Assembly: GCF_000011385.1 (NCBI RefSeq) | Contig: NC_005125.1 | Location: 248,001 to 312,000 of the forward strand | Direction: 5' to 3' | DNA from: Gloeobacter violaceus PCC 7421 | Lineage (GTDB): Bacteria; Cyanobacteriota; Cyanobacteriia; Gloeobacterales; Gloeobacteraceae | Length of the DNA: 64,000 bases | Part shown: positions 7,407 to 24,160 of the stretch, in pieces | Layout: each line of letters begins with the position of its first letter | Position numbering within the stretch: position 1 is the stretch's first letter | Notes under the pieces: model-generated | Told to the model about the DNA's origin: nothing | What the model saw: the letters and a program-made list of their open reading frames with translations, nothing else | Database searches by the model: none | Position numbers and translations under genes: made by a program

Positions 7407-7599
7407 GATTGAGCCCATGAGCGCCATCACCCACGACATCGCCGCCAAGCCCTGGAACCTCTCCACCGGTCTGGTGGGGTTTGGCAGGGTCTGGCGGATT
7501 TCGCCGTGGCGTTCGAGCAGGGCCTGTGCAATCCAGTGGCGGCACCGATCACCGCCAGATGCGGCTTGACTCAGGGAGTAGACCGACCAACGTCACCCC

Positions 7600-7875
7600 T
7601 TAGCGCCCGCGGCAGGCGGAACGCTCCTGGTGCAACCCCTGCTGCAGCGCCCGTCTTTGGGTGAGCGCACCAAAAGCCTGCTCCCTTTCGCCCTGTTCGT
7701 AAGCAACGATTGCCTGCAGGCGCAGTTGTCGCGCTTCGCGCTCGAGCGGACTCGGCTTCTGCGCGCAGGCCGCCTCGGCCTGCAGATCGACCAGGGGTAG
7801 ATTCTGGCCAAAAGCCGGTGCGCCGGACAACAGCAACGCCGCTGCCGCCCAATGAAACTTGCGATAGAAATGCAT
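7600..7875 (-). CDS. Small secreted protein of unknown function
   Basis: The 91-aa product has a clear signal peptide (MHFYRKFHWAAAALLLSGAPAFG) with predicted cleavage before QNLP. The mature part is about 68 residues, mostly charged helix (EREARQLRLQAIVAYEQGEREQAFGALTQRRALQQG), with two Cys in the mature part (ACAQ and SACRG). It could form a disulfide. No family is recognised. It lies 32 bases downstream of the S74 protein on the same strand and may be co-transcribed with it. Confidence 0.6.
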   Translation of the reverse strand: MHFYRKFHWAAAALLLSGAPAFGQNLPLVDLQAEAACAQKPSPLEREARQLRLQAIVAYEQGEREQAFGALTQRRALQQGLHQERSACRGR

Positions 7876-7907: not shown

Positions 7908-9182
7908 TCAGCGGCTGGCCGACTGGGTGTGGGCCGCGGCGCGATAGGACGGAGACTGCGGCGTCTGGACGACGTACTCGATCGCTTCTAGGCGCCGCTG
8001 GAGTGCGGCGAGCTGTTGCTGTTGGTGTTGGATTTGCGCGTCTTTAGCGGCAAGCAGCCGGTGCAGGCCCTGGATGGCGGCAAGAGCCACCCCGTCGGCA
8101 TCCACGGTGCTGATGTGGCGTTCGTCTTCGCCTACGGCAAAGGCGGCGCGAAAATCCTGGGCGGTGGGTCCGATGTGGCGCACAGCCGGATCCTGGCTGG
8201 TGTAGTTCCAGGTGCCGATGGGGAGCGCGGCCAGCTTTTCGAGCACCTGCACGCCGTCTACGGGGGTGAAGTTGCCCTTGAGGGCGCGGTCGCTCACCAC
8301 CGCCCAGGAGCCGGAGCCGGGGGCGAGGGTGGCGCCCACGGTGGCGGCGCTGTTGGTGAAAAAGGTCACCCCTCCCGAGGCGCGGGCGCGAAACTGGTGG
8401 GCGGCGGTGGAGGAGAAATCCCCGGCTGACTGATCGCTCCAGACAAAAGCTCCGGCGTTTACCGCCTTGGCCCGCCAGCCCAGGGCGACGCTGCCGGTGC
8501 TGGTTGCTTCGTTGAAGTAGCCCCCCAAAATGGCGGAGTAGGAGCCGGTCGCTTCGCCGAAGTAGCCCCCGGCGATGGTGGAGAGGTAGCCGGAGGCAAG
8601 ATTGCCGTAGCCCCCGCCCACCGCCGCGTAATCGTCGACAGCGTCGTTGAACAACCCTCCGGCCACGCCCGCACCGGTGCCGTCCGCAAGATTGAAAGAA
8701 CCACCGGCCACGCTCGCATCGCTTTGCAGGGCGCTGTTGCCGTAGCCGCCGCCCACCGTGGCGGCGTAGGCGGTGGCATCGTTGCCAAACCCACCACTCA
8801 CCGTGGCGTAGGCGGCGTCGGCAACCGTTCCGGCACCGTCGCCCGCCTGATTTTGGACGCCGCCGCCGATCGTGCCGTAGTCGTCGGTGATCTGATGGGG
8901 GCTGATTTCCGAGCCGCCGCCGCCAATGGCTGCGCCTTTGACGCCGGAGGTGACGCTATTTTTGTAGCTGCCGCCCACGACACTCGGGGGACCACCCGGG
9001 AAAATCCGCAACCCGGTGGTGTTGTTCGCCTTGAGGACCAGATTTTTGTTGTCGGTGGTACCGACGAAGTTGGTGCCCGGGGTAGTCCCTGCGTTGCCGG
9101 TAAGGTTCCATTGGGCGTGGGTCGGCAGGGCACCGGCGCTTAGCACCACCACAGAAGTCAAGATGAACAATGGATATCGCAC
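7908..9182 (-). CDS. Secreted trimeric fibre-like protein with C-terminal peptidase S74 (intramolecular chaperone) domain
   Basis: The 424-aa protein begins with a signal peptide (MRYPLFILTSVVVLSAGALPTHA). Residues about 80-250 are a run of short repeats (AAIGGGGSEIS, TIGGGVQNQAG, TVSGGFGNDAT, TVGGGYGNSAL, SVAGGSFNLAD, TIAGGYFGEAT and similar) of the YadA-head type, which form left-handed trimeric beta-rolls. A C-terminal S74 domain follows, starting at S297-D298 in SDRALKGNF with the conserved Ser and Lys, and containing GPTAQDFRAAF. It ends in a Gln-rich coiled coil. In phage tail spikes and MyRF this domain drives trimerisation and may cut itself off at the Ser. A surface fibre or adhesin role is inferred. 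Confidence 0.85.
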   Translation of the reverse strand: MRYPLFILTSVVVLSAGALPTHAQWNLTGNAGTTPGTNFVGTTDNKNLVLKANNTTGLRIFPGGPPSVVGGSYKNSVTSGVKGAAIGGGGSEISPHQITDDYGTIGGGVQNQAGDGAGTVADAAYATVSGGFGNDATAYAATVGGGYGNSALQSDASVAGGSFNLADGTGAGVAGGLFNDAVDDYAAVGGGYGNLASGYLSTIAGGYFGEATGSYSAILGGYFNEATSTGSVALGWRAKAVNAGAFVWSDQSAGDFSSTAAHQFRARASGGVTFFTNSAATVGATLAPGSGSWAVVSDRALKGNFTPVDGVQVLEKLAALPIGTWNYTSQDPAVRHIGPTAQDFRAAFAVGEDERHISTVDADGVALAAIQGLHRLLAAKDAQIQHQQQQLAALQRRLEAIEYVVQTPQSPSYRAAAHTQSASR

Positions 9183-13710: not shown

Positions 13711-14379
13711 TCAAGCGCTCCAGCCCAGCCAACGGTCGAGGCGCCCGGCCAGTTCTTCAACCGTCTCGACCCAAAAATCCGGCCGAGCAGAGACCAACTC
13801 CTCGCGCCCGTGGGTGCCCCAGGTGACCGCACAGCAGGCCACCCCGGCGGCGCGGGCCATTTCGATATCGAGGGTGGTGTCGCCCACCATCAGCGCTTCG
13901 CCCACCCCGAAGCCGGTGAGGGCAAGGGCGAGCTTGAGCGATTCGGGGTCGGGCTTACCCCGAATCACTTCGTCCGGGGAGACGATCGTTTCAAAAAATT
14001 CGAGCCATCCCGCCTGAGCGAGCACCTCCCGAATCGAGCGGCCGCGCTTGCCCGAGCAGATGGCCAGCATTACCCCGCGGCGGTGCAAGGCGCGCACCAG
14101 GGCGTCGGTGCCGGCGAAGGGGCGGCTCATGGGCAGCATGATTTCGCGGTAAACCTCGCGGTAGCACTCCACCACCCGGGGGGCTTCCGCGAGGCGCTCC
14201 GCGGGCAAAATCGCAGGCATTTGCTCGCGTAGGGGCATGCCGATGAGCTTGCGCCAGCGCTCGACGGTGCCCCCAGGCAGGGCCAGGGCCAGGGCCGTAC
14301 GCTCCATGGCAAGCACAATTCCCCCTTCCGAATCGATGAGCGTACCGTCGAGATCGAAGACGACCAACCGTTCGGACAT
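13711..14379 (-). CDS. HAD-superfamily phosphatase (phosphoglycolate phosphatase/PGMB-like)
   Basis: The 222-aa product starts at MSERLVVFDLDGTLIDSEGG, which holds motif I (DxDGT) with nucleophile and acid/base Asp. Motif II is the Ser in AICSGKRG, motif III the Lys in IRGKPDPESLKLAL, and motif IV is VGDTTLDIEMARAAG. The helical cap between residues 15 and 85 is the C1 type seen in Gph and beta-phosphoglucomutase. The substrate is not defined by sequence. The ATG at 14379 is preferred over 14394 because it directly precedes motif I. Confidence 0.87.
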   Translation of the reverse strand: MSERLVVFDLDGTLIDSEGGIVLAMERTALALALPGGTVERWRKLIGMPLREQMPAILPAERLAEAPRVVECYREVYREIMLPMSRPFAGTDALVRALHRRGVMLAICSGKRGRSIREVLAQAGWLEFFETIVSPDEVIRGKPDPESLKLALALTGFGVGEALMVGDTTLDIEMARAAGVACCAVTWGTHGREELVSARPDFWVETVEELAGRLDRWLGWSA

Positions 14380-14471
14380 CCGGCGCTCCTGCAAAGGCCA
14401 ACCCAGATTTATAGCCTTTACCGGTGCTTCTCACCTAGACTCTTTTCCAATACTCCTCACCATCGGTTCCC

Positions 14472-15524
14472 ATGAATCTGCTCATCGGTTCGACTACCCC
14501 CTGCAGCGGCAAGTCCGCCATCGCCCTCGGCCTCGGATTGCGTCTGCGCGCGGCGGGCCGGCAGGTGGTCTACGCCAAACCCCTGGGCACCATTGCCGTG
14601 GAGGCGGCCGGGCAGTGGCGCGACGCCGACTGCGTGCTGATGAACGAGTATCTGGGCGCTTCGGTGCCACCGCCGGTACCGCTGGTCTTTCTGGACCGCG
14701 CCAGCGTCCGCCGCCGCCTGAGTGGCGAGGACACCGTCGACTACCGCGAGCGGCTGCCCGATTTTGCTCCCGAGGAGCCGGGGCTGGTGCGCCTCATCGA
14801 AGGGGCCGGCACGCCGCAGGAGGGAGCCGTTTTCGAGCTGACGCTGCAGGTGCTCGCCGAGCAGTTGCCCGCCCGCGTGCTGTTGGTCTGCCGCTACGAA
14901 GAAGATCTGGTGATCGATCAGCTGCTCATCTTGCGCTCGCAGTTGGGCAATCGACTGGCGGGAGTGATCCTCAACGATGTGCCGGTCGACCAGCAGGAGG
15001 ATGTGGGCAGCGTGCTGGTGCCGTTTTTGGAGCGCCAGCGCATCGGTGTTTTCGGCGTCCTGCCCGCCGACACCACCCTCAAGAGCGTCAGCGTCGGGGA
15101 ATTGGTGGGTACCCTGGGCGCGGAGGTGCTCTGCTGCCGCGAGCGGCTCGATCAGATGGTCGAATCGGTGCACATCGGGGCGATGAGCGGCAGCGCCGCC
15201 CTCAAATATTTTCGCAACGCCGTCAACAAAGCTGTGATCACCGGCGGAGACCGCACCGACATTCAGCTTGCGGCCCTGGAGACTTCCACCACCTGCCTGG
15301 TGCTGACCGGCTATCTCGCCCCCTCCCAGATGGTCCTGGCCCGCGCCGAAGAACTGCAGGTGCCGGTCCTCACCGTCGGCCACGACACCCTCGCCACCAC
15401 CGAGATCGTCGATCGCCTCTTCGGCCAGGCGCGCTTTCGCGAATCGGCCAAAGTCGATCGAATTCAGCAGCTACTCGATCGCCATTTTGATTTTGAGCGC
15501 TTTGAGAAAGTACTGGGGCTCTAG
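14472..15524 (+). CDS. BioD-like P-loop plus DRTGG domain protein (phosphotransacetylase-family annotation)
   Basis: The protein is 350 aa. The N-terminus has a dethiobiotin-synthetase-like P-loop (LLIGSTTPCSGKSAIALGLGL) and an AAA_26/BioD fold to about residue 210. The C-terminal 120 or so residues form a DRTGG domain (KAVITGGDRTDIQLAALETST). This is the N-terminal half of long phosphate acetyltransferases, and the catalytic Pta domain is absent, so transacetylase activity is unlikely. Related stand-alone proteins are widespread in cyanobacteria; a nucleotide-sensing role is an inference. Confidence 0.8.
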   Translation: MNLLIGSTTPCSGKSAIALGLGLRLRAAGRQVVYAKPLGTIAVEAAGQWRDADCVLMNEYLGASVPPPVPLVFLDRASVRRRLSGEDTVDYRERLPDFAPEEPGLVRLIEGAGTPQEGAVFELTLQVLAEQLPARVLLVCRYEEDLVIDQLLILRSQLGNRLAGVILNDVPVDQQEDVGSVLVPFLERQRIGVFGVLPADTTLKSVSVGELVGTLGAEVLCCRERLDQMVESVHIGAMSGSAALKYFRNAVNKAVITGGDRTDIQLAALETSTTCLVLTGYLAPSQMVLARAEELQVPVLTVGHDTLATTEIVDRLFGQARFRESAKVDRIQQLLDRHFDFERFEKVLGL

Positions 15525-15530
15525 GCATCG

Positions 15531-15584
15531 GGTATCAGATATCGGGTGTCGGTAAGCTCACCCCGACACCCGATACCTGACACC
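15531..15584. terminator. 22-bp near-perfect hairpin between convergent genes
   Basis: Arm 15531-15552 pairs with arm 15563-15584 at 20 of 22 positions, with a 10-base loop; the inner 13 bp are perfect. It lies between the DRTGG gene (plus) and glnB (minus), where both messages would end. Its TCAGGTATC/GGTGTC words recur in another intergenic hairpin at 54905-54955. Confidence 0.7.
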
Positions 15585-15634
15585 TCGGCCCGACCTGACA
15601 ACCCAAACGGAGCCGGTATGACACCCAACGCCTC

Positions 15635-16009
<375 letters not shown>

Positions 16010-16207
16010 CTAGCACCCGATGCCAGCCGGTGGTGTTGGTGAGACTACCATTTTTCGGTCCCTAGGGGGAGCCTATCCGGGCTCAGCCACCGCTAGCGAT
16101 TGCTCCCCGACGAGGGTAAAGTTGCACACCATATCTAGTTCTTGTGGTAATCTCGGTGCAGGTTTGCGCCATTTCAAACCCCTTAGCGCATTTTGTGTGG
16201 AGGCTTT

Positions 16208-17020
16208 ATGCGTCGGGCTTTTGCCGCTATTTTCAGTGCGAGCTGTCTGCTGGCCCCGATGACGGTCGCCGCCAGGGAGTTCAACTTCTCTAAACCCGCC
16301 CCCAACCCGCCCTCGCTCAGCTCACCCGGGCCGACGCGCATCATCCCGCCGCCGCCCCAGGTGGCACCGCGCACCCCCGTAGTGCCTGCCTCTGGGACAC
16401 CGCAGACAGCCATGCCTGCGGCTTCTCCCGCGGCGGTTCCCACCTTCGAGGTGATTACCAGCCAGTACGACCTGCCCAAGGGTACCCAGTTCAACGCCTC
16501 GGCGGTGCGCGAACTGGTCTACAACCCGTCGGACACCCTGGCGATGACGCTGCAGGTGGCCGACGACGTGCGCGACGGCTCCGGGGACGTCGTCATCCCC
16601 AAGGGTAGTACCGTTTGGGGATCGTTTAGACCCGTGGCGGCCAAGGAGCCCGAGGATCCGGCTACCGCAAGCCGCGAGCCGCGCGACAACTCCAGTTGGC
16701 CGGAAGGCTCGCGCTTCGTGGCTGAACGGGTGGCCATCGGAGACCGGATCTACAACTTCAAGGCCCAGACCGAGGCTTTGCCCACCCAGACCGACCCGAG
16801 GCGCAACGTCGGGGCGGAAGCGGGCAGCGGAGCGCTCATCGGTGCAGCCGGGGGCGCCATCGTCTCGATATTTACCGGCGGCCTTGGACTGATCCCGATC
16901 CTGGCTGGAGGCGGGCTGGGGGCCGGCGTGGGGGCCGCGGTCGCCAGCACCCCGGTGGTGTTTATCAAGGGCGATCAGCCTCTGCAGTTGACCCTGCTCG
17001 AACCGCTGCGGGTGCGCTGA
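16208..17020 (+). CDS. Secreted protein with glycine-zipper segment, TrbI/VirB10-like beta domain possible
   Basis: The product is 270 aa from ATG 16208, preceded by GGAGG seven bases upstream. It has a signal peptide (MRRAFAAIFSASCLLAPMTVAA) and a proline-rich linker. The beta-rich region YDLPKGTQFNASAVRELVYN followed by DVVIPKGSTVWGSF, RFVAERVAIGDRIYNFKAQTE resembles the barrel of VirB10/TrbI proteins, which line the outer-membrane channel of type IV secretion systems. A glycine-zipper hairpin (GALIGAAGGAIVSIFTGGLGLIPILAGGGLGAGVGAAV) ends near residue 250. No other secretion genes are near, so the role is unknown. Confidence 0.6.
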   Translation: MRRAFAAIFSASCLLAPMTVAAREFNFSKPAPNPPSLSSPGPTRIIPPPPQVAPRTPVVPASGTPQTAMPAASPAAVPTFEVITSQYDLPKGTQFNASAVRELVYNPSDTLAMTLQVADDVRDGSGDVVIPKGSTVWGSFRPVAAKEPEDPATASREPRDNSSWPEGSRFVAERVAIGDRIYNFKAQTEALPTQTDPRRNVGAEAGSGALIGAAGGAIVSIFTGGLGLIPILAGGGLGAGVGAAVASTPVVFIKGDQPLQLTLLEPLRVR

Positions 17021-17022
17021 AT

Positions 17023-17439
17023 TTATTCGCCGTAACCTGCATCCTTGAGGGGTAACAGTTCCTGCATCGAAGCTACCAGCCGCAAATGCAGCCGGGCAAT
17101 CGAGCCCTGGATAATCCGAAAATGCCAGTGGGCACGCACGCGAAAAGCCGGACAGCGTACCCGGCCGCCCAGGATCACGGTGTCCGCTTCGACGGCAATG
17201 TTCTCGACTTCGATGGACATTCCCTTTGCCTTAAAGGCAACATAATCGACGATCGCTTCGCGGCCTTTCACTTGTACGTTGATTGGCGCAACAAGCGTTG
17301 CCTGTGGGTGAAACAACTTGCCTAGAGCCGTCAGGTCGTGTCGGTTGAAAGTGTCGACGTAACTTTCGATGAGCGTCGGTAGAGTTATAGAGTCGGGTTG
17401 GCGGTCAATCGGTTCAGTCGTCTGCAAAGGGGCCTCCAT
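17023..17439 (-). CDS. CTDH: stand-alone homologue of the OCP C-terminal (NTF2-like) domain
   Basis: The 138-aa protein is a single NTF2-like domain (IESYVDTFNRHDLTALGKLF). It carries the specific signature of the OCP C-terminal domain near its end: GGRVRCPAFRVRAHWHF, then LHLRLVASMQELLPLK, matching the OCP pattern KVQTPWF, NIAWRF and LLASPQELL. Y27 and W105 line up with OCP Tyr201 and Trp288, which hydrogen-bond the carotenoid keto group. The equivalent of Trp277 is Ala98. Known CTDHs bind ketocarotenoid, donate it to HCPs and quench singlet oxygen. It follows two HCP genes on the same strand, so the two OCP halves are encoded side by side. Confidence 0.82.
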   Translation of the reverse strand: MEAPLQTTEPIDRQPDSITLPTLIESYVDTFNRHDLTALGKLFHPQATLVAPINVQVKGREAIVDYVAFKAKGMSIEVENIAVEADTVILGGRVRCPAFRVRAHWHFRIIQGSIARLHLRLVASMQELLPLKDAGYGE

Positions 17440-17445
17440 TGCCGG

Positions 17446-17474
17446 GCAGCGGAGGGCGGACAGCCCTCCGCTGC
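17446..17474 (-). promoter_or_regulatory. Perfect 12-bp hairpin immediately upstream of the CTDH start codon
   Basis: GCAGCGGAGGGC (17446-17457) and GCCCTCCGCTGC (17463-17474) are perfect complements around a 5-base loop. In the message the stem ends only six bases before the CTDH ATG at 17439, inside the ribosome-binding region, and begins 19 bases after the upstream HCP stop. It could attenuate transcription, block ribosomes or mark a processing site and so set the HCP to CTDH ratio. There is no U-tract for simple termination. Confidence 0.6.
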
Positions 17475-17493
17475 GATGGTTTCCTATAGGGTC

Positions 17494-18048
17494 TTAGCGA
17501 TCCGTGTCCTTGACGGTATCACCCAGGAAGGTAATCTGCTGCTCGAAATCGAGGGGCTGGACCAGCGCCAGTATCGTCTGAGCCTGCTCGCTCAGTTGGT
17601 ACCCTGCGGGCACGCCGATCACGTCGCTGCCCATGCGCTTGGCCAGCAGCAGCCAGATGGCCAACCTTTCGGTCTCGGTATACCGGCTATAAATGTGACC
17701 GATGGCATTGCCGTCGCGGCGCAGCAACGCGCGCATCGCCTCAAGCTGAGCTTCGCCCTGGGGCAGGGCATCAAACTCGCCAAAAAATTCGCGGGTCATC
17801 TCGAAATTGGCATCGTCGGGTGTCGCAGAGTCGATCGCTTGACCGGACAACTTGTAGACGCCGTACAGTACGGCCAGCTTGTCGTCAACTTCGAGTGCGT
17901 TGAACTGCCCGACCGCATGCTCCAATTGCGCGGAGCGAACAGCCTCGGGCGCTTCGCTGCGCAAGGGCTGATCCGTCTCCTGCAATTGTTCGAGATCAGA
18001 ACCGATGTTCGCCTCGTTCACTGTACCTGCTTTTTGTTGCTCATCCAT
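17494..18048 (-). CDS. HCP: helical carotenoid protein (OCP N-terminal domain homologue), divergent copy
   Basis: The 184-aa product starts at MDEQQKAG, the same start as its neighbour paralogue. After about 45 acidic residues comes the all-helical OCP N-terminal domain: FNALEVDDKLAVLYGVYKL, then LEAMRALLR, ERLAIWLLLAKRM, GVPAGYQLSEQAQTIL and FEQQITFLGDTV. Y65 and W132 match OCP Tyr44 and Trp110, which stack on the carotenoid ring. The residue equivalent to OCP Arg155, which bridges the domains and is needed for phycobilisome binding, is Gly176. Known HCPs bind carotenoid and either quench singlet oxygen or phycobilisomes; loss of the Arg suggests this copy is not a phycobilisome quencher. 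Confidence 0.85.
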   Translation of the reverse strand: MDEQQKAGTVNEANIGSDLEQLQETDQPLRSEAPEAVRSAQLEHAVGQFNALEVDDKLAVLYGVYKLSGQAIDSATPDDANFEMTREFFGEFDALPQGEAQLEAMRALLRRDGNAIGHIYSRYTETERLAIWLLLAKRMGSDVIGVPAGYQLSEQAQTILALVQPLDFEQQITFLGDTVKDTDR

Positions 18049-18242
18049 ATTTCGATGCGCCTCTTGAACGTCACTGACCAAAGTAAGCCAGAACAGATGG
18101 TGAGCCTTCTCCCTCAGGAATGAAACATTTTGACATCGATTTTCTGTTTCTATGGAGAATGCAATGCCTTCCGACAACTCTCCGCAAGCACAGGCGGGAG
18201 AGGCGATTTTTGCCGTCCCCGCCCATTGCTTGTCAGCCTGCT

Positions 18243-18896
18243 TTAGACTGCTCGCTCGATCGGATCGTGGCCCATGGGATTGACGACATCGCGCAGGAAA
18301 GTGATTTGCTGCTCGAAATCCAGTTCCTTGACGTGCACCAGATTCTGCTGGCCGAGATCGCCAAGTTGGTAATCGTCGGGCATGCCGATCACGTCGTCGC
18401 CCATGCGCTCGGCAAGCAGGTACCAGATAACCAGTTTGTTATTCTCGCTCAGTTTGCCGTACTCGCGGCCGAGGGTGTTGTCCTCGCAGCGCACCAGGGC
18501 GCGCATCGCCTCTAGTTGGGTATCGCCGTCCGTGAGGGCGTTGAATTCACCGAAGAAGGCAGTGGTCAATTCGATATCAGCAGCACCCGGGGCGGCGGGG
18601 GTGACCGACTCGCCCATCGCCTCGTACAGGTAGTAGAGCACCGCCAGTTTGTCGTCGACTTCGAGAGCATTGAACTGCTCGACGGCGTTGCGCACCCCCA
18701 CCGAGCGGGCCGCCTCGGGCGCTTCGCTGTCGAGGGCCTGCTCGACGATCGTATCAAGCTCTTCGCCTGAGACCCCTGCCCCGGCATTGCCGTCCTGGGC
18801 GCCCGGCGCGGGCTGGCCTTCAGCGGGCTGGATCATGCCGACTCCCTGCTCGAACGCTTTTTCGACGTCCGCCGATACTTTTTGTTGTTCATCCAT
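18243..18896 (-). CDS. HCP: helical carotenoid protein (OCP N-terminal domain homologue) with long acidic N-terminal extension
   Basis: The 217-aa product has a low-complexity acidic, Gly/Pro/Ala-rich extension of about 70 residues. The OCP N-terminal domain follows: FNALEVDDKLAVLYYLYEAMGE, APGAADIEL, NNKLVIWYLLAERM, MPDDYQLGDLGQQNL and FEQQITFLRDVVNPMG. Y91, W158 and R202 correspond to OCP Tyr44, Trp110 and Arg155, so unlike its neighbour it keeps the arginine. It is first of the HCP-HCP-CTDH series. Clear identity in sequence and start region with the second HCP shows tandem duplication. A cytosolic carotenoid-binding photoprotective role follows from the family. Confidence 0.87.
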   Translation of the reverse strand: MDEQQKVSADVEKAFEQGVGMIQPAEGQPAPGAQDGNAGAGVSGEELDTIVEQALDSEAPEAARSVGVRNAVEQFNALEVDDKLAVLYYLYEAMGESVTPAAPGAADIELTTAFFGEFNALTDGDTQLEAMRALVRCEDNTLGREYGKLSENNKLVIWYLLAERMGDDVIGMPDDYQLGDLGQQNLVHVKELDFEQQITFLRDVVNPMGHDPIERAV

Positions 18897-18903
18897 ATAT
18901 GGA
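18892..18903. promoter_or_regulatory. Palindrome TCCATATATGGA overlapping the first HCP start codon
   Basis: This perfect 12-base palindrome contains the ATG of the HCP gene at 18896. A shortened version (AATATGGATGAGCAACA) occurs at the start of the second HCP, as expected after duplication. A repressor site is possible but not shown. Confidence 0.35.
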
Positions 18904-18973
18904 CGTGGCTCCTGAGTTCCTCACCCCAAGCCTAGGAGCAACGGCGGGGACCTCCTTCCCCCTGCGGATGGAA

Positions 18974-19633
18974 TCAGACGGCGCGTGCGGGCAGAGATGG
19001 CCTGAGCACCAGGTAGAGCAGCGGGCCGAACAACGGTAGCGCACAGGCTATCCACAGGGGCCAGGTGCGCTTGACCGAGCGGCGGCGCAGGTCGTCGCCG
19101 ATGAGCAGCGGCAACAGCGCCGTGCTCACCAGAAAATCGAGGCCCATCACATGCACGAAGCGGGAGGTGCGCCACTGCTCGGCAAAAGCAGCCCAGTTCC
19201 CCTGGGTAAGACCGAACCAGAACAAGCCCGCCACACCCGCCATGACCGCCAGGGCGAACCAGCGCGAATCGAACAGCCGCGCAGCCCGTCCGGCTGGTGG
19301 GATGTGGGGCCATACACCGTGGGGCCGCCGACAGATCAAGTAGGGCAACAGCGCGAAAGCTCCCACCGCAAAAGAAGCGACGGCGAAGGGCCAGGCGGGC
19401 AACTTTTCGCCGTGGGCGTCGGGAACGAGCAAGAACAGATACGCAAGCGGAATCAGCCCCATCAGGTTGAACAGTGCCACCGAGAGCGGTTCGCCACGGC
19501 CCAGGGCCAGATCCGCAAGCGAGGCGGCCTGTTGGAGAGGGCTCCGGGTCTCGGGCGGCCCCCCCAAAAAGGCATAGGCGACAAATCCCAGCCACAGCGC
19601 AGCCAGGGCAATTCGCACGGCGACCATCGGCAT
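18974..19633 (-). CDS. Polytopic membrane protein of unknown function
   Basis: The 219-aa protein has six or seven hydrophobic segments, such as IALAALWLGFVAYAF, LFNLMGLIPLAYLFLLV, WPFAVASFAVGAFALLPYL, WFALAVMAGVAGLFWFGL and a final LWIACALPLFGPLLYLVL. The block FVHVMGLDFLVSTALLPLLIGDD is typical of a cyanobacterial and plastid membrane-protein group (DUF2834-like, uncertain). It lies 77 bases upstream of the first HCP on the same strand and could share its transcript. No transport signature was found. Confidence 0.6.
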   Translation of the reverse strand: MPMVAVRIALAALWLGFVAYAFLGGPPETRSPLQQAASLADLALGRGEPLSVALFNLMGLIPLAYLFLLVPDAHGEKLPAWPFAVASFAVGAFALLPYLICRRPHGVWPHIPPAGRAARLFDSRWFALAVMAGVAGLFWFGLTQGNWAAFAEQWRTSRFVHVMGLDFLVSTALLPLLIGDDLRRRSVKRTWPLWIACALPLFGPLLYLVLRPSLPARAV

Positions 19634-19651
19634 GGCAGTCTATTGGCGCGT

Positions 19652-20176
19652 CTACTCTCGATTGTGCGTCCTGCCTGTTGATTTGGCGCGCAACGGTTCA
19701 GGGCGCCGCTCGCCCGGCAGGTAGAGCGGATGGCAGGGCTGACCCCGGCGGGTGAGTCCCAGGCAGTGTGCCTCGCCGTCGATCAGGGCGAGCACGGCTT
19801 GGTCCCGCCTATGGAGAGCGCCATGGTTGCCCCAGCCCACCACGACCCGTCCGGCGCCCCGGCAGACCTGCGCCAGTACCCGATCGTTGTCGGGGCCGAT
19901 CGGGTCGGTGACTCGGGCAAGCGCGCGCGGATTGGCGGTGCGCCAGGCGAACAAATTGACGACCGCCAGAGCGCCAAAACCCCAGCGCCGGGAGAATCCC
20001 AGGCATCGGCGAATCGTCGCGTCGTCCCGAGCCGCGTCGGCGGCGCTGGGATTGAGCAGAATAAAAACGACCTGCTCGCCCATCGCATCCCAACGCCGCC
20101 ACAGCGCGTAGCGGTACAGGCCGCTCGCGTCGAAGAGGGCGTCACCAACCGTCGCGCTTGTCCGATTGTCACCCAT
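19652..20176 (-). CDS. DUF1643-family protein
   Basis: The 174-aa protein contains the characteristic DUF1643 blocks: YRYALWRRWD, VVFILLNPSAADAARDDATIRRC, WGFGALAVVNLFAWR, DPIGPDND and VVGWGNHG, then GQPCHPLYL near the end. The family is widespread in bacteria and phages and its biochemical role is unknown. It ends 18 bases upstream of the membrane-protein gene and may head the same operon. Confidence 0.85.
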   Translation of the reverse strand: MGDNRTSATVGDALFDASGLYRYALWRRWDAMGEQVVFILLNPSAADAARDDATIRRCLGFSRRWGFGALAVVNLFAWRTANPRALARVTDPIGPDNDRVLAQVCRGAGRVVVGWGNHGALHRRDQAVLALIDGEAHCLGLTRRGQPCHPLYLPGERRPEPLRAKSTGRTHNRE

Positions 20177-20249
20177 GGCCTATCTTTCGTCGCCGCGCGC
20201 CGCAGCGTGGACGATATCATAGTTCAGGCTTATTTTCTTGAGTGGTTCC

Positions 20250-20885
20250 ATGCAAAAACGGCATCAACCGGGTTGGCTGGCATGGCTCGGCGCGGCCTGC
20301 CTCGCGGCAAGCTATGCCCCTGCTTTTGCCCAGGCACCGGAGTACAAGGGACCGGGCAGCACCACCCAGCAGCAGCCCCAGCAGCCAGGTTCAGAAGAGG
20401 CAGCCAAGCAGGAAGCGGAACAAAAGCGCAAGATCCAGGAGGCCGAGACCCGCAACAAAGCGGTCCTCGCCAACAACCGTGGCGTCGAGTTGCAAAAAGA
20501 CGGCAAGAACGCCGAGGCGGTCGAAGCGTTTCGCGAGGCGCTGCTGGTCGATCCGACCTACGAGCTGGCGAAGCAGAACCTGGCGGCCTCCCACTTCAAC
20601 CTGGCCAGCGAAGCGATCGGCAAACAGCAGTGGGCGGCGGCGATCGAGAATCTGGAGGCGGCGCGCACCTACGACAAGAGCCTGCGCGAGAAGACGACCG
20701 TGCCTCTGGCCGGTTCCTACAACAACCAGGCCGCCGAACTGGTCGAAGCCAAGCGCCTCGATGAAGCGGTCGGCGCGATGGAAAAAGCCGCCGAACTCGA
20801 CAGCAAATACGAAGAAGAACTGCGCAAACTCAAAGACTACCGCGCCCAGGTCAACTCCCAGCAGAAGCCCGGCAAGTCCAAGTAG
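20250..20885 (+). CDS. Periplasmic TPR-repeat protein
   Basis: The 211-aa product starts at ATG 20250 with a signal peptide (MQKRHQPGWLAWLGAACLAASYAPAFA). A Gln/Glu-rich coiled segment precedes TPR-like helical pairs: NNRGVELQKDGKNAEAVEAFREALLVDPTYELAKQNLAA, LASEAIGKQQWAAAIENLEAA and QAAELVEAKRLDEAVGAMEKAAELDSKYEEEL. It is probably a protein-interaction scaffold in the periplasm. It lies 102 bases upstream of the RND pump gene on the same strand, but its own pump-like features are nil and it is not a membrane-fusion protein. Confidence 0.75.
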   Translation: MQKRHQPGWLAWLGAACLAASYAPAFAQAPEYKGPGSTTQQQPQQPGSEEAAKQEAEQKRKIQEAETRNKAVLANNRGVELQKDGKNAEAVEAFREALLVDPTYELAKQNLAASHFNLASEAIGKQQWAAAIENLEAARTYDKSLREKTTVPLAGSYNNQAAELVEAKRLDEAVGAMEKAAELDSKYEEELRKLKDYRAQVNSQQKPGKSK

Positions 20886-20932
20886 AATTTGTGCGCGGAC
20901 ACGTATCACAGGCTCCGCGTAATCGAGCGTGC

Positions 20933-20938
20933 TACACT
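20933..20938 (+). promoter_or_regulatory. Candidate -10 box of the RND pump gene
   Basis: TACACT, 49 bases before the pump ATG, matches four of six bases of the -10 consensus. No good -35 box is seen. It suggests the pump can be transcribed independently of the TPR gene. Confidence 0.35.
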
Positions 20939-20987
20939 AGAAAACAACTCTTGTCGCCTTTCATGGGCGTCACTTTGGGGTGATTCG

Positions 20988-23900
20988 ATGCGCTGGAATA
21001 TCTCCGCCTGGTCGATCCGCAACCCGGTGCCCACCGTCGTCCTCTTCTTGATGCTGACGGTGGCAGGGGTGGCCGCCTTTTTGAACCTGAGCATCGCCGC
21101 CGAACCGGACATCGACGTTCCGGCCGTCTCGGTGACTGTCACCCAGTTGGGGGCGGCCCCGAGTGAACTGGAGACCCAGGTGACCCGCAAGATCGAGGAC
21201 GCCGTGGTCGGTCTGGGCAACGTCAAGCGTCTCACCTCGACGGTCAACGACGGGTCTTCAGTGACGCGGGTCGAATTTTTCTTGGGCACCAACACCGACC
21301 GGGCGGTCAACGACGTGCGCGACGCGGTCACCAAAATTCGCGCCCAACTGCCCCAGAGCATTGACCCGCCGGTGGTGCGGCGCAACGACGAGGCGGGGGG
21401 ACCGATCTTGGGCTATACGGTCTACTCGAAGCAACGCACCAACGCCGAAATCAGCTGGCTGGTGGACAACACCATTACCCGGGCAGTCCTGACGGTGCCG
21501 GGGGTCTCGCGGGTCTACCGCTCCGGTGGCGTCACCCGCGAGGTGCGCATCGAATTGAACCCCAACCGCCTGCAGGCCCTCGGGGTGACCGCCGATCAGC
21601 TCAACGGTCAGATTCGCGCCCTCAACATCGATTTGCCCGGCGGCCGGGGCGAAGTCGGCCCCGGCGAGCAGGCCATCCGCACCCTGGGCAGTGCCGCCAC
21701 CGTCGAGCGGCTCGCCGCCACCCAGATTCTGCTTTCCGACGGGCGCTACGCGCGCCTCGACACCCTGGGCCGCGTGCTGGACGGCACCACCGAGCCGCGC
21801 CAGATCGCTTATCTCGACGGCAAGCCGGGAGTGGCCTTTGAGGTAGTGCGCTCCAAAGGTTCCAATCTGGTGAATGTCGAAGAGGGGGTCGAAAAGAAGG
21901 TCGCCGAACTCAAAAAAATCCTGCCCGCCGACATCCGGATCGATCCCACCTGGACGGTGGGCGACTTTGTGCGCGAATCCTACGAAGCCTCGGTGGACGC
22001 ACTGCTGCTGGGGGCGGCTCTTGCGGTGGTGGTCATCTGGGTATTTCTGCGCGACTGGCGGTCGACCTTGATCGCGGGGCTGGCCATGCCGCTTTCGGCG
22101 ATTCCAACCTTTGCGGTCATGAAGACCCTGGGCTTCACGCTCAACAGCATGACGCTGCTGGCCCTGGCCCTGGTGATCGGCATTCTGGTCGACGACGCCA
22201 TCGTCGAAATCGAAAACATCGTGCGCCACATCGGCATGGGCAAGTCGCCCTTTCAAGCGGCCCTCGATGCGGCGGACGAAATTGGCCTGGCGGTGGTGGC
22301 GACCACGATGACGATCGTGGCGGTCTTCGTGCCGGTGGCCTTCATGGGCGGCATCCAGGGCCAGTACTACCGCCAGTTCGGGATCACCGTGGCGGCGGCG
22401 GTGCTCTTTTCGCTGGTGGTGGCGCGCATGCTCACCCCGCTGTTGGCGGCCTACCTGATGCAGCCTTTGCCGGAGGCCGAGGGCAAAGGAGCGCTCGCCC
22501 GCCTCTACGACCGGTTCCTGGGCTGGGCGATCGACCACCGCTGGGTCACCCTCGCAGTGGCCGGGGTCTTCTTCGCCGGGAGCCTCACCCTGTTTCAGAC
22601 CATCCCCACCTCGCTCATCGGTGCGGTCGACGACAACCAGAGCACCCTCGCCGTCGAGCTGCCGCCGGGGGCGACCTTTGCCCAGACCCGCCTGGCGGTC
22701 GAGCGGGTCAACGCGATCGTCATGGGCCGCGAGGAAGTTTCCAAACTGGAGACCACCGTCGGCACCTACGACAACAGCGGCAAGATCAACGAAGCCAAGT
22801 TTTATATTTCCCTCAAACCCAAGTCCGAGCGCAAAAATTCCAAGCAAAAGTTCGAAGCGGCGGTGCGCGAGGAATTGATCGCGATTCCCGGTGTGCGCTT
22901 CGCTTTTTCCGGCGGCAACTGGGACAGCATCAAGACTTTGCAGATCGTGCTCAAAAGCGACGACTCGGTCGCCCTGCGCCGCACCGCCGCGGCGCTGACC
23001 GACCAGATGCGTTCGCTCCCGGGCCTCACCGACGTCAGTTCATCGGCGGCGATCCTGCGCCCCGAAATCCAGGTGCGCCCAAAGTTCGACCGCGCCGCCG
23101 AACTGGGGGTCTCGGTGCAGGCGATTGCCCGCACGGCCCTGATTGCCACCCTCGGTGACCGGGAGGCGGATCTGGCCAAGTTCAACCTGCCGGGCCGTCA
23201 GATCAACATCCGCGTGCAGCTCGATGCGGCCTTCCGAGGCAACCTGGAGGCGATCCGCGACCTGCGCGTCGCTTCGGCAACGGGCGAACTGGTACCCCTC
23301 AAGGCGGTGGCGGAGGTGAACCTGGGCAGCGGTTCGGCGCAGATCGACCGCTACGACCGCGCCCGGCAGGTGACGGTGGGAGCCAATCTGCTGCCGGGTA
23401 CCGAACTGGGACCGGCCCTCTCGCAGGTGCACCAGCTGCCGGCGTTGCGCAATTTGCCCGCCGGGGTGAGCGAGCAGCTCACCGGCGACGCCGAGAACCA
23501 GCGCGACGTGTTCGAAGGCTTTGGGTTCGCCATCGGCGCGGCGGTGCTCTTGATCTACGCGGTGCTGGTGCTGCTGTTCGGCGGCTTTTTGCATCCGCTC
23601 ACGATCATGGTCTCGTTGCCTTTGTCCCTGGGCGGGGTGGTGCTGGGGCTGTTACTCTTCGGCAAGTCCCTGGGTCTGTACGCGCTGATTGGCATCATCA
23701 TGTTGATGGGCCTGGTCACCAAGAACGCCATTTTGCTCGTCGAGTACGGCTTGATGGCCATCGAAGCGGGCCAACCGCGGCGCACAGCGCTGTTACAGGC
23801 GGGCGAATCGCGCATGCGGCCGATCTTGATGACCACGATCGCCATGATCGCGGGCATGCTGCCGATCGCCCTGGGTTTGGGGGCGGGCTCCGAGGTGCGC

Positions 23901-24074
23901 TCTCCCATGGCCGTGGCGGTGGTAGGGGGCCTGGTCACTTCGACGTTGCTCACCCTCATCGTCGTACCAGTGGTCTTCACCTGCATCGACGATGTGCAAC
24001 AGTGGCTTTTGCGCCTCGCGGGCGGCACTCCCAAAGCAAGCCCGGCAGCGGCGGCTCCTGCCCAGCAGCAGTGA
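20988..24074 (+). CDS. RND-family efflux pump inner-membrane subunit (AcrB/HAE1-like)
   Basis: The 1028-aa protein starts at MRWNISAWSIRNPVPTVVLFLML. It has the RND layout: TM1, a large periplasmic loop, TM2-6 with ALALVIGILVDDAIVEIENI (the TM4 Asp pair of the proton relay), a second loop, and TM7-12 with KNAILLVEYG (the TM10 Lys). Such pumps use the proton gradient to export drugs, lipids or metabolites. No membrane-fusion protein or TolC gene lies next to it, which is unusual; partners must be encoded elsewhere. The upstream in-frame GTG at 20889 would add 33 residues without homology to the family. Confidence 0.95.
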   Translation: MRWNISAWSIRNPVPTVVLFLMLTVAGVAAFLNLSIAAEPDIDVPAVSVTVTQLGAAPSELETQVTRKIEDAVVGLGNVKRLTSTVNDGSSVTRVEFFLGTNTDRAVNDVRDAVTKIRAQLPQSIDPPVVRRNDEAGGPILGYTVYSKQRTNAEISWLVDNTITRAVLTVPGVSRVYRSGGVTREVRIELNPNRLQALGVTADQLNGQIRALNIDLPGGRGEVGPGEQAIRTLGSAATVERLAATQILLSDGRYARLDTLGRVLDGTTEPRQIAYLDGKPGVAFEVVRSKGSNLVNVEEGVEKKVAELKKILPADIRIDPTWTVGDFVRESYEASVDALLLGAALAVVVIWVFLRDWRSTLIAGLAMPLSAIPTFAVMKTLGFTLNSMTLLALALVIGILVDDAIVEIENIVRHIGMGKSPFQAALDAADEIGLAVVATTMTIVAVFVPVAFMGGIQGQYYRQFGITVAAAVLFSLVVARMLTPLLAAYLMQPLPEAEGKGALARLYDRFLGWAIDHRWVTLAVAGVFFAGSLTLFQTIPTSLIGAVDDNQSTLAVELPPGATFAQTRLAVERVNAIVMGREEVSKLETTVGTYDNSGKINEAKFYISLKPKSERKNSKQKFEAAVREELIAIPGVRFAFSGGNWDSIKTLQIVLKSDDSVALRRTAAALTDQMRSLPGLTDVSSSAAILRPEIQVRPKFDRAAELGVSVQAIARTALIATLGDREADLAKFNLPGRQINIRVQLDAAFRGNLEAIRDLRVASATGELVPLKAVAEVNLGSGSAQIDRYDRARQVTVGANLLPGTELGPALSQVHQLPALRNLPAGVSEQLTGDAENQRDVFEGFGFAIGAAVLLIYAVLVLLFGGFLHPLTIMVSLPLSLGGVVLGLLLFGKSLGLYALIGIIMLMGLVTKNAILLVEYGLMAIEAGQPRRTALLQAGESRMRPILMTTIAMIAGMLPIALGLGAGSEVRSPMAVAVVGGLVTSTLLTLIVVPVVFTCIDDVQQWLLRLAGGTPKASPAAAAPAQQQ

Positions 24075-24160
24075 CACCAGGTATTGTCGAGGAATATTAG
24101 CGAAACACCGTACTCTCCAAAGTGAAGGGTCTTGAATTCGTAGCGATTGGAGTTGCCCTA

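Follow-up and report, generated by a model that had tools for sequence, protein, structure and literature searches.

The closest described counterpart of the genes considered here is the pair hcp4 (all4941)–ctdh (all4940) of Anabaena PCC 7120, in which the gene of a helical carotenoid protein (HCP), a homologue of the N-terminal domain (NTD) of the orange carotenoid protein (OCP), adjoins that of a homologue of the OCP C-terminal domain (CTDH). The Anabaena CTDH gives its carotenoid to the HCP, and the adjoining genes were proposed as the progenitor pair of OCP (PMC6123778). The present locus belongs to Gloeobacter violaceus PCC 7421 and lies in bases 248001–312000 of its 4,659,019-base chromosome; this 64-kb stretch is called the window below, and all coordinates refer to it. 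It holds HCP-A, HCP-B and CTDH, two HCP genes followed by a ctdh gene, which are read in this order from the minus strand. The hcp–ctdh arrangement itself is already known and widespread; the additions made here are residue changes in the CTDH and the HCPs, a relic of HCP-B in relatives, and a stem-loop at the hcp–ctdh junction. Gloeobacter lacks thylakoids and is the sister lineage of all remaining cyanobacteria, and its version of the split pair therefore bears on the origin of OCP.

The trio shares with the Anabaena pair both protein folds and the adjacency of HCP and CTDH genes. Anabaena HCP4 falls in the OCP-related clade and its CTDH is of the Cys103 redox type, whereas the Gloeobacter HCPs belong to another clade, the CTDH carries Phe99 and a Lys at the position of OCP E244, and a second, divergent HCP is present. 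An adjacent, one-strand hcp–ctdh pair is also found in the small genomes (2.1–2.8 Mb) of group g33, presumably Thermosynechococcus (loci L111, L115 and L117). Their single PF09150 match is a stand-alone HCP on the HCP4/5 side and they lack a full-length OCP, unlike Gloeobacter, which has two. These, OCP3a alpha and beta (OCPX), have the two domains in common with the trio and share its genome; they are, however, fused and photoactive, and group with other OCPs and not with the HCPs and CTDH of the trio.

The CTDH and the proposed hand-over of carotenoid

The trio is regarded here as the Gloeobacterales version of the cyanobacterial hcp–ctdh pair, and it probably, though by no means securely, constitutes a carotenoid hand-over module and not an OCP-like closed photoswitch. 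Its elements are as follows.

HCP-A: 18243–18896, minus strand; 217 aa, acidic N-terminal extension and a complete OCP-NTD-like domain (PF09150, 189 bits)
HCP-B: 17494–18048, minus strand; 184 aa, a tandem paralogue that has diverged from HCP-A (PF09150, 153 bits)
CTDH (CCP): 17023–17439, minus strand; 138 aa, NTF2-fold homologue of the OCP C-terminal domain (CTD), Phe (clade-1/CCP1) type, near-neutral
Junction stem-loop: 17446–17474, minus strand; perfect 12-bp stem and 5-nt loop, after the stop codon of HCP-B and before the start of CTDH
Second stem-loop: 18182–18236, minus strand; between HCP-A and HCP-B, predicted at -32.5 kcal/mol, z -3.7

A preliminary description of the window had recognized two stand-alone OCP-NTD homologues followed on one strand by a CTDH, and this was confirmed by the open reading frames and by the PF09150 scores of HCP-A (P0003) and HCP-B (P0002), which far exceed the cut-off of 25 bits, with no second domain in either product. 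The intergenic gaps are 194 bp (HCP-A/HCP-B) and 54 bp (HCP-B/CTDH). A mechanically called start of HCP-B at TTG 18177 was dropped in favour of 18048, where the product begins with MDEQQK as does HCP-A.

The CTDH product matches PF02136 (NTF2, the CTDH superfamily) at 23.5 bits against a cut-off of 21, SnoaL_2 scoring higher (52.9 bits). Its nearest solved relatives are the Anabaena CTDH All4940 and OCP CTDs (E ~1e-5), and its own genome encodes no other kin than the CTDs of the two full-length OCPs. A profile built from seven Gloeobacterales CTDHs found stand-alone CTDHs across cyanobacteria at E ~1e-22 to 1e-33, and OCP CTDs at 1e-14 to 1e-21; the product of 17023–17439 thus falls within the CTDH group, a placement that the preliminary description had treated as decisive. 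In the AlphaFold2 model (pLDDT 81.5, from an alignment of four rows only) the five best Foldseek matches were the Anabaena CTDH; since other NTF2-fold proteins score nearly as well, the fold by itself is weak evidence.

The contact residues were identified by OCP numbering, which was checked against the genome's own OCP. Y27 and W105 of the CTDH correspond to the carotenoid contacts Y201 and W288 and are invariant in Gloeobacterales CTDHs, while ASMQELL matches the C-terminal tail motif, so that the W105/ASMQELL signature pointed out earlier is real. After position 103 the protein is four residues shorter than OCP (beta5–beta6), a gap that is typical of CTDHs and that is needed for carotenoid uptake and dimer stability (PMC6123778). 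The position of Cys103 (103/105) is occupied by Phe99, which precludes a disulphide and places the protein in clade 1/CCP1, the Phe being distinguished from the Cys of clade 2/CCP2 according to PMC7512017.

The residues of the docking face are of a different kind. Lys70 stands at OCP E244 and Ala98 at OCP W277. The former position is occupied in the six other Gloeobacterales CTDHs by Lys (four), Gln (one) and Glu (one), and in 66 CTDHs from elsewhere by Glu with a single Asp (65/66 and 1/66), and the loss of E244 is, as far as the alignment goes, particular to Gloeobacterales CTDHs. W277 is missing from most CTDHs, not only from these. Glu244 and Trp277 are essential for the contact between CTD and NTD in OCP, and published CTDH–HCP pairs transfer the carotenoid completely rather than share it (PMC6123778). 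Taken together, the two substitutions and the complete transfer in the published pairs favour a hand-over above a split photoswitch. Lys70/Ala98 against Glu244/Trp277 could also serve as a test case for which surface residues decide between hand-over and switching on a shared carotenoid.

Carotenoid transfer between the neighbouring products, as the preliminary description had proposed, is a likely idea, and the following course can be envisaged. The CTDH, probably a dimer with one ketocarotenoid, would take echinenone or canthaxanthin from the plasma membrane and load apo-HCP-A, which would retain the pigment as a soluble carotenoprotein and might act as a store, as a singlet-oxygen quencher or possibly as an antenna quencher. 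HCP-B would be a drifting tandem copy: residues that contact the phycobilisome are lost from it and relatives can dispense with it, but it may still bind carotenoid. The junction stem-loop probably raises the amount of HCP over that of CTDH from a single transcript, and such an excess would suit a CTDH that turns over as carrier and an HCP that accumulates as acceptor. G. violaceus is a maker of ketocarotenoids through crtW/crtO (PMC3131562), and echinenone was bound to the recombinant OCPs of this species on purification (PMC12525769).

Some observations weigh against this interpretation. The CTDH lacks the near-universal PPF phenylalanine (Ile53) as well as W277, and its binding of carotenoid could be weakened or changed. 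Promoter and terminator scans gave no signature favouring one operon. In two Gloeobacter relatives, moreover, CTDH and HCP-A are ~2.5 Mb apart or on separate contigs, which indicates that the linkage is not essential.

The two HCPs and the question of an OCP progenitor

By sequence, the closest matches of HCP-A in the PDB are HCP1 and HCP4. The model of HCP-B (pLDDT 76.9) has the all-helical fold of the OCP NTD, the best matches being OCP NTD, HCP1 and HCP4 (4xb4, 5fcy, 8qx5). HCP-A is 71–93% identical to its orthologues in Gloeobacter relatives and 54% identical to HCP-B. It carries an N-terminal extension of ~60 aa with a net charge of -11. An acidic extension of variable length occurs in most Gloeobacterales HCPs and ends in the conserved ISSxExSEIVDQxL...PExVRS; its part in HCP-A is encoded by 18710–18896.

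The Tyr and Trp contacts to the carotenoid, previously described as conserved in both HCPs, were found to be conserved in part. Y44 and W110 are present in both proteins, W41 is replaced by Tyr in every Gloeobacterales HCP aligned, and HCP-B has in addition Leu for Y111. HCP-A retains R155, N104, P56 and G57, three of which are changed in HCP-B (G57 to Asp, N104 to Thr and R155 to Gly), where the VTPAAPGAA loop is altered as well. Among the Gloeobacterales HCPs, HCP-B departs from the rest at ten of 47 columns that otherwise do not vary, as compared with none to four departures in the other HCPs, and in the NTD tree its terminal branch (~1.0) is the longest of all HCPs.

Relationships were examined with a maximum-likelihood tree of 92 NTD and HCP sequences and with a CTD tree, both unrooted and based on 121–145 columns. 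The Gloeobacterales HCPs form a single clade (99/92) on the side of the HCPs that are not linked to a CTDH. A second clade (100/99), outside of which they stand, unites all OCP NTDs, those of Gloeobacter among them, with Anabaena HCP4 and the HCPs that are linked to a CTDH in other cyanobacteria; the two Gloeobacter OCPs group with other cyanobacterial OCPs and HCP4-type HCPs. Forced sisterhood of the Gloeobacterales HCPs to the OCP NTDs was rejected by the approximately unbiased (AU) test (p=0.006). When they were forced together with HCP4/5 and OCP, the value fell just short of rejection (AU p=0.062), and their exclusion from that group is not beyond doubt. The Gloeobacterales CTDHs also form one clade (97/97); their union with the OCP CTDs was not rejected (p=0.215), and several branches of the CTD tree are long. 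Comparison with solved structures of the HCPs nearest the Gloeobacterales clade gave no identification with HCP2, and a clade number is therefore left off.

These results bear on the suggestion that the cluster is ancestral-like, which is contradicted for its HCP half and left standing by the test for its CTDH half. On the NTD data available, the Gloeobacter pair does not fit the part of an OCP progenitor, and the result argues that the living pair is no relic of the ancestor of OCP and that CTDH–HCP pairing occurs outside the HCP4/5 lineage. Because the trees are unrooted and the columns number 121–145, the pairing may still be ancestral, with its loss in other HCP lineages coming afterwards.

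The charges of the partners are also distinctive. Gloeobacterales HCP domains have a net charge of -9 to -18 and the CTDHs one of -2 to +3, whereas in other linked pairs the relation is reversed. A charge complementarity arising from a swap specific to Gloeobacter was considered and rejected; in other cyanobacteria the unlinked HCPs are just as acidic (-8 to -17 in all rows except the CTDH-linked L157), so that only the near-neutral CTDH is special to Gloeobacterales. It is tempting to speculate that the Gloeobacterales pair is independent and anciently separated, its CTDH docking face having been re-wired (E244 to Lys, near-neutral) for a strongly acidic HCP outside OCP and HCP4/5, that hand-over predates or parallels the pair that was fused into OCP, and that a ratio-setting junction stem-loop was kept across cyanobacteria; as a whole this proposal is tentative and has the odds against it.

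Among the alternatives to a hand-over module, the one that survives best, although we consider it unlikely, is that HCP-A is loaded by the CTDH and acts on phycobilisomes as a constitutive quencher in the manner of HCP4/HCP5. HCP4 and HCP5 do quench phycobilisomes (PMC12059629), and R155, N104, P56 and G57 are all in place in HCP-A. R155 alone, however, is not diagnostic, as it is found in all five aligned HCPs that are unlinked to a CTDH, and HCP-A lies outside the clade of HCP4/5 and OCP, shares its strong acidity with the unlinked HCPs, and has Tyr at W41.

Gene order, intergenic stem-loops and surroundings

Four further Gloeobacterales genomes, from two families, likewise have an hcp gene immediately upstream of ctdh and on its strand (G003, ES-bin-141, ES-bin-313 and Candidatus Cyanaurora vandensis). 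Beyond these, an HCP was found just upstream on the same strand at 26 of 59 other stand-alone CTDH loci, a proportion which is not an unbiased frequency as the loci were the top of a score-ranked list. Over the sampled and extra loci and the Gloeobacterales the adjacency spans 13 families. In the first of the four genomes, which we take to be G. kilaueensis, a full-length OCP is encoded 5 kb from hcp–ctdh with a 1212-aa biotin-carboxylase-like gene between them (L046 5579–12981). A third kind of HCP–CTDH neighbourhood was seen at L071, L086 and L090, where HCPs grouping with HCP1 adjoin ctdh on the opposite strand, in divergent orientation.

The two relatives with separated genes, the Aphanocapsa lilacina metagenome-assembled genome (MAG) G004 and G005, are collinear with window 13715–17559 around the CTDH and, elsewhere in the genome, with 18193–24078 around HCP-A, the break in collinearity falling within HCP-B. 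About 100 bp of the 3' end of HCP-B persist in both just upstream of ctdh (L047 ~7570–7690; L048 ~8330–8450). The relic in G004 reads ...QITFLGDTVQDTGR-stop and its counterpart in HCP-B ...QITFLGDTVKDTDR-stop. An origin of HCP-B as a gene new to PCC 7421 was accordingly rejected; the relic implies that the common ancestor had HCP-B, with R155 already replaced by Gly, and that the gene was then lost in these two genomes, from which it follows that it is dispensable. At the place of the window's CTDH start the ATG is absent from both relatives (L047 7693–7700; L048 near 8321), a stop codon or Gln being found there, and their CTDHs must start elsewhere.

The junction hairpin at 17446–17474 is the sole perfect hairpin with a stem of at least 11 bp in the window. 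It ends 6 nt before the CTDH ATG, has no T-run, and folds with z -4.4. Stable stem-loops that differ from it occupy the same junction in G003, ES-bin-141 and ES-bin-313, while those of G004 and G005 are no better than shuffles. Over 34 hcp–ctdh junctions the median z was -2.3, against -0.1 for upstream and 0.0 for coding controls; values below -2 were reached by 18 of the junctions, by 2 of the 34 upstream controls and by none of the 34 coding controls (junction against upstream, Wilcoxon p=7e-5, relatedness of the loci not being corrected for). An Rfam scan gave no match. The likeliest role of the structure would be partial termination or selective stabilisation of the mRNA, leaving more HCP than CTDH. 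Stem-loops recurring at hcp–ctdh loci across families (L046, L049, L051, L060–L139) may likewise set relative expression.

That the genes adjoin for historical reasons alone, with the stem-loops acting as terminators, the proteins being independent and the CTDH mainly loading OCPs, is improbable. The separation of the genes in A. lilacina and G005 and the strength of the intergenic stem-loops agree with it, as does the finding that apo-OCP can be loaded by the OCP CTD and by CTDH (PMC6123778). It is opposed by the same adjacency and order in 13 families, and by the window stem-loop, which lacks a T-run and was passed over by the terminator scan.

Least probable, indeed very doubtful, is the split photoprotective switch of the preliminary description, a light-switchable heterodimer of CTDH and HCP-A with one shared carotenoid: separately expressed OCP halves are able to form OCP-like heterodimers (PMC12059629), and HCP-A retains R155 and N104 and the CTDH the equivalents of Y201 and W288, but with E244 and W277 missing neither R155 nor N104 has its partner in the CTD, HCP-B has Gly for R155, the shortened beta5–beta6 of CTDHs favours full transfer (PMC6123778), and two photoactive OCPs are already encoded in the genome (PMC12525769).

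PF09150 domains number four in the genome, those of HCP-A and HCP-B and the NTDs of the two full-length OCPs, which are located elsewhere. Exact matches to the four primers published for the two OCPs of PCC 7421 (PMC12525769) are present in loci L001 and L002. A literature search by the locus tags of the trio returned no match. The nearest neighbours are not pigment-related; they encode a P-II protein, a Pfam-less product, a DRTGG/AAA protein, a DUF1643 protein, a TPR protein and an AcrB-type pump. The Pfam-less gene (16193–17020, plus strand) lies tail-to-tail with ctdh beside the P-II gene and is a neighbour in Gloeobacter relatives too. Heterocystous cyanobacteria and related ones commonly have two HCP genes on the same strand within ~2 kb (L181, L182, L184, L185, L187, L190, L191, L193, L199, L202, L208 and L209). 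An HCP is also encoded at L189, on a contig titled Chloroflexaceae bacterium (MAG), which is probably a mis-binned cyanobacterial contig.
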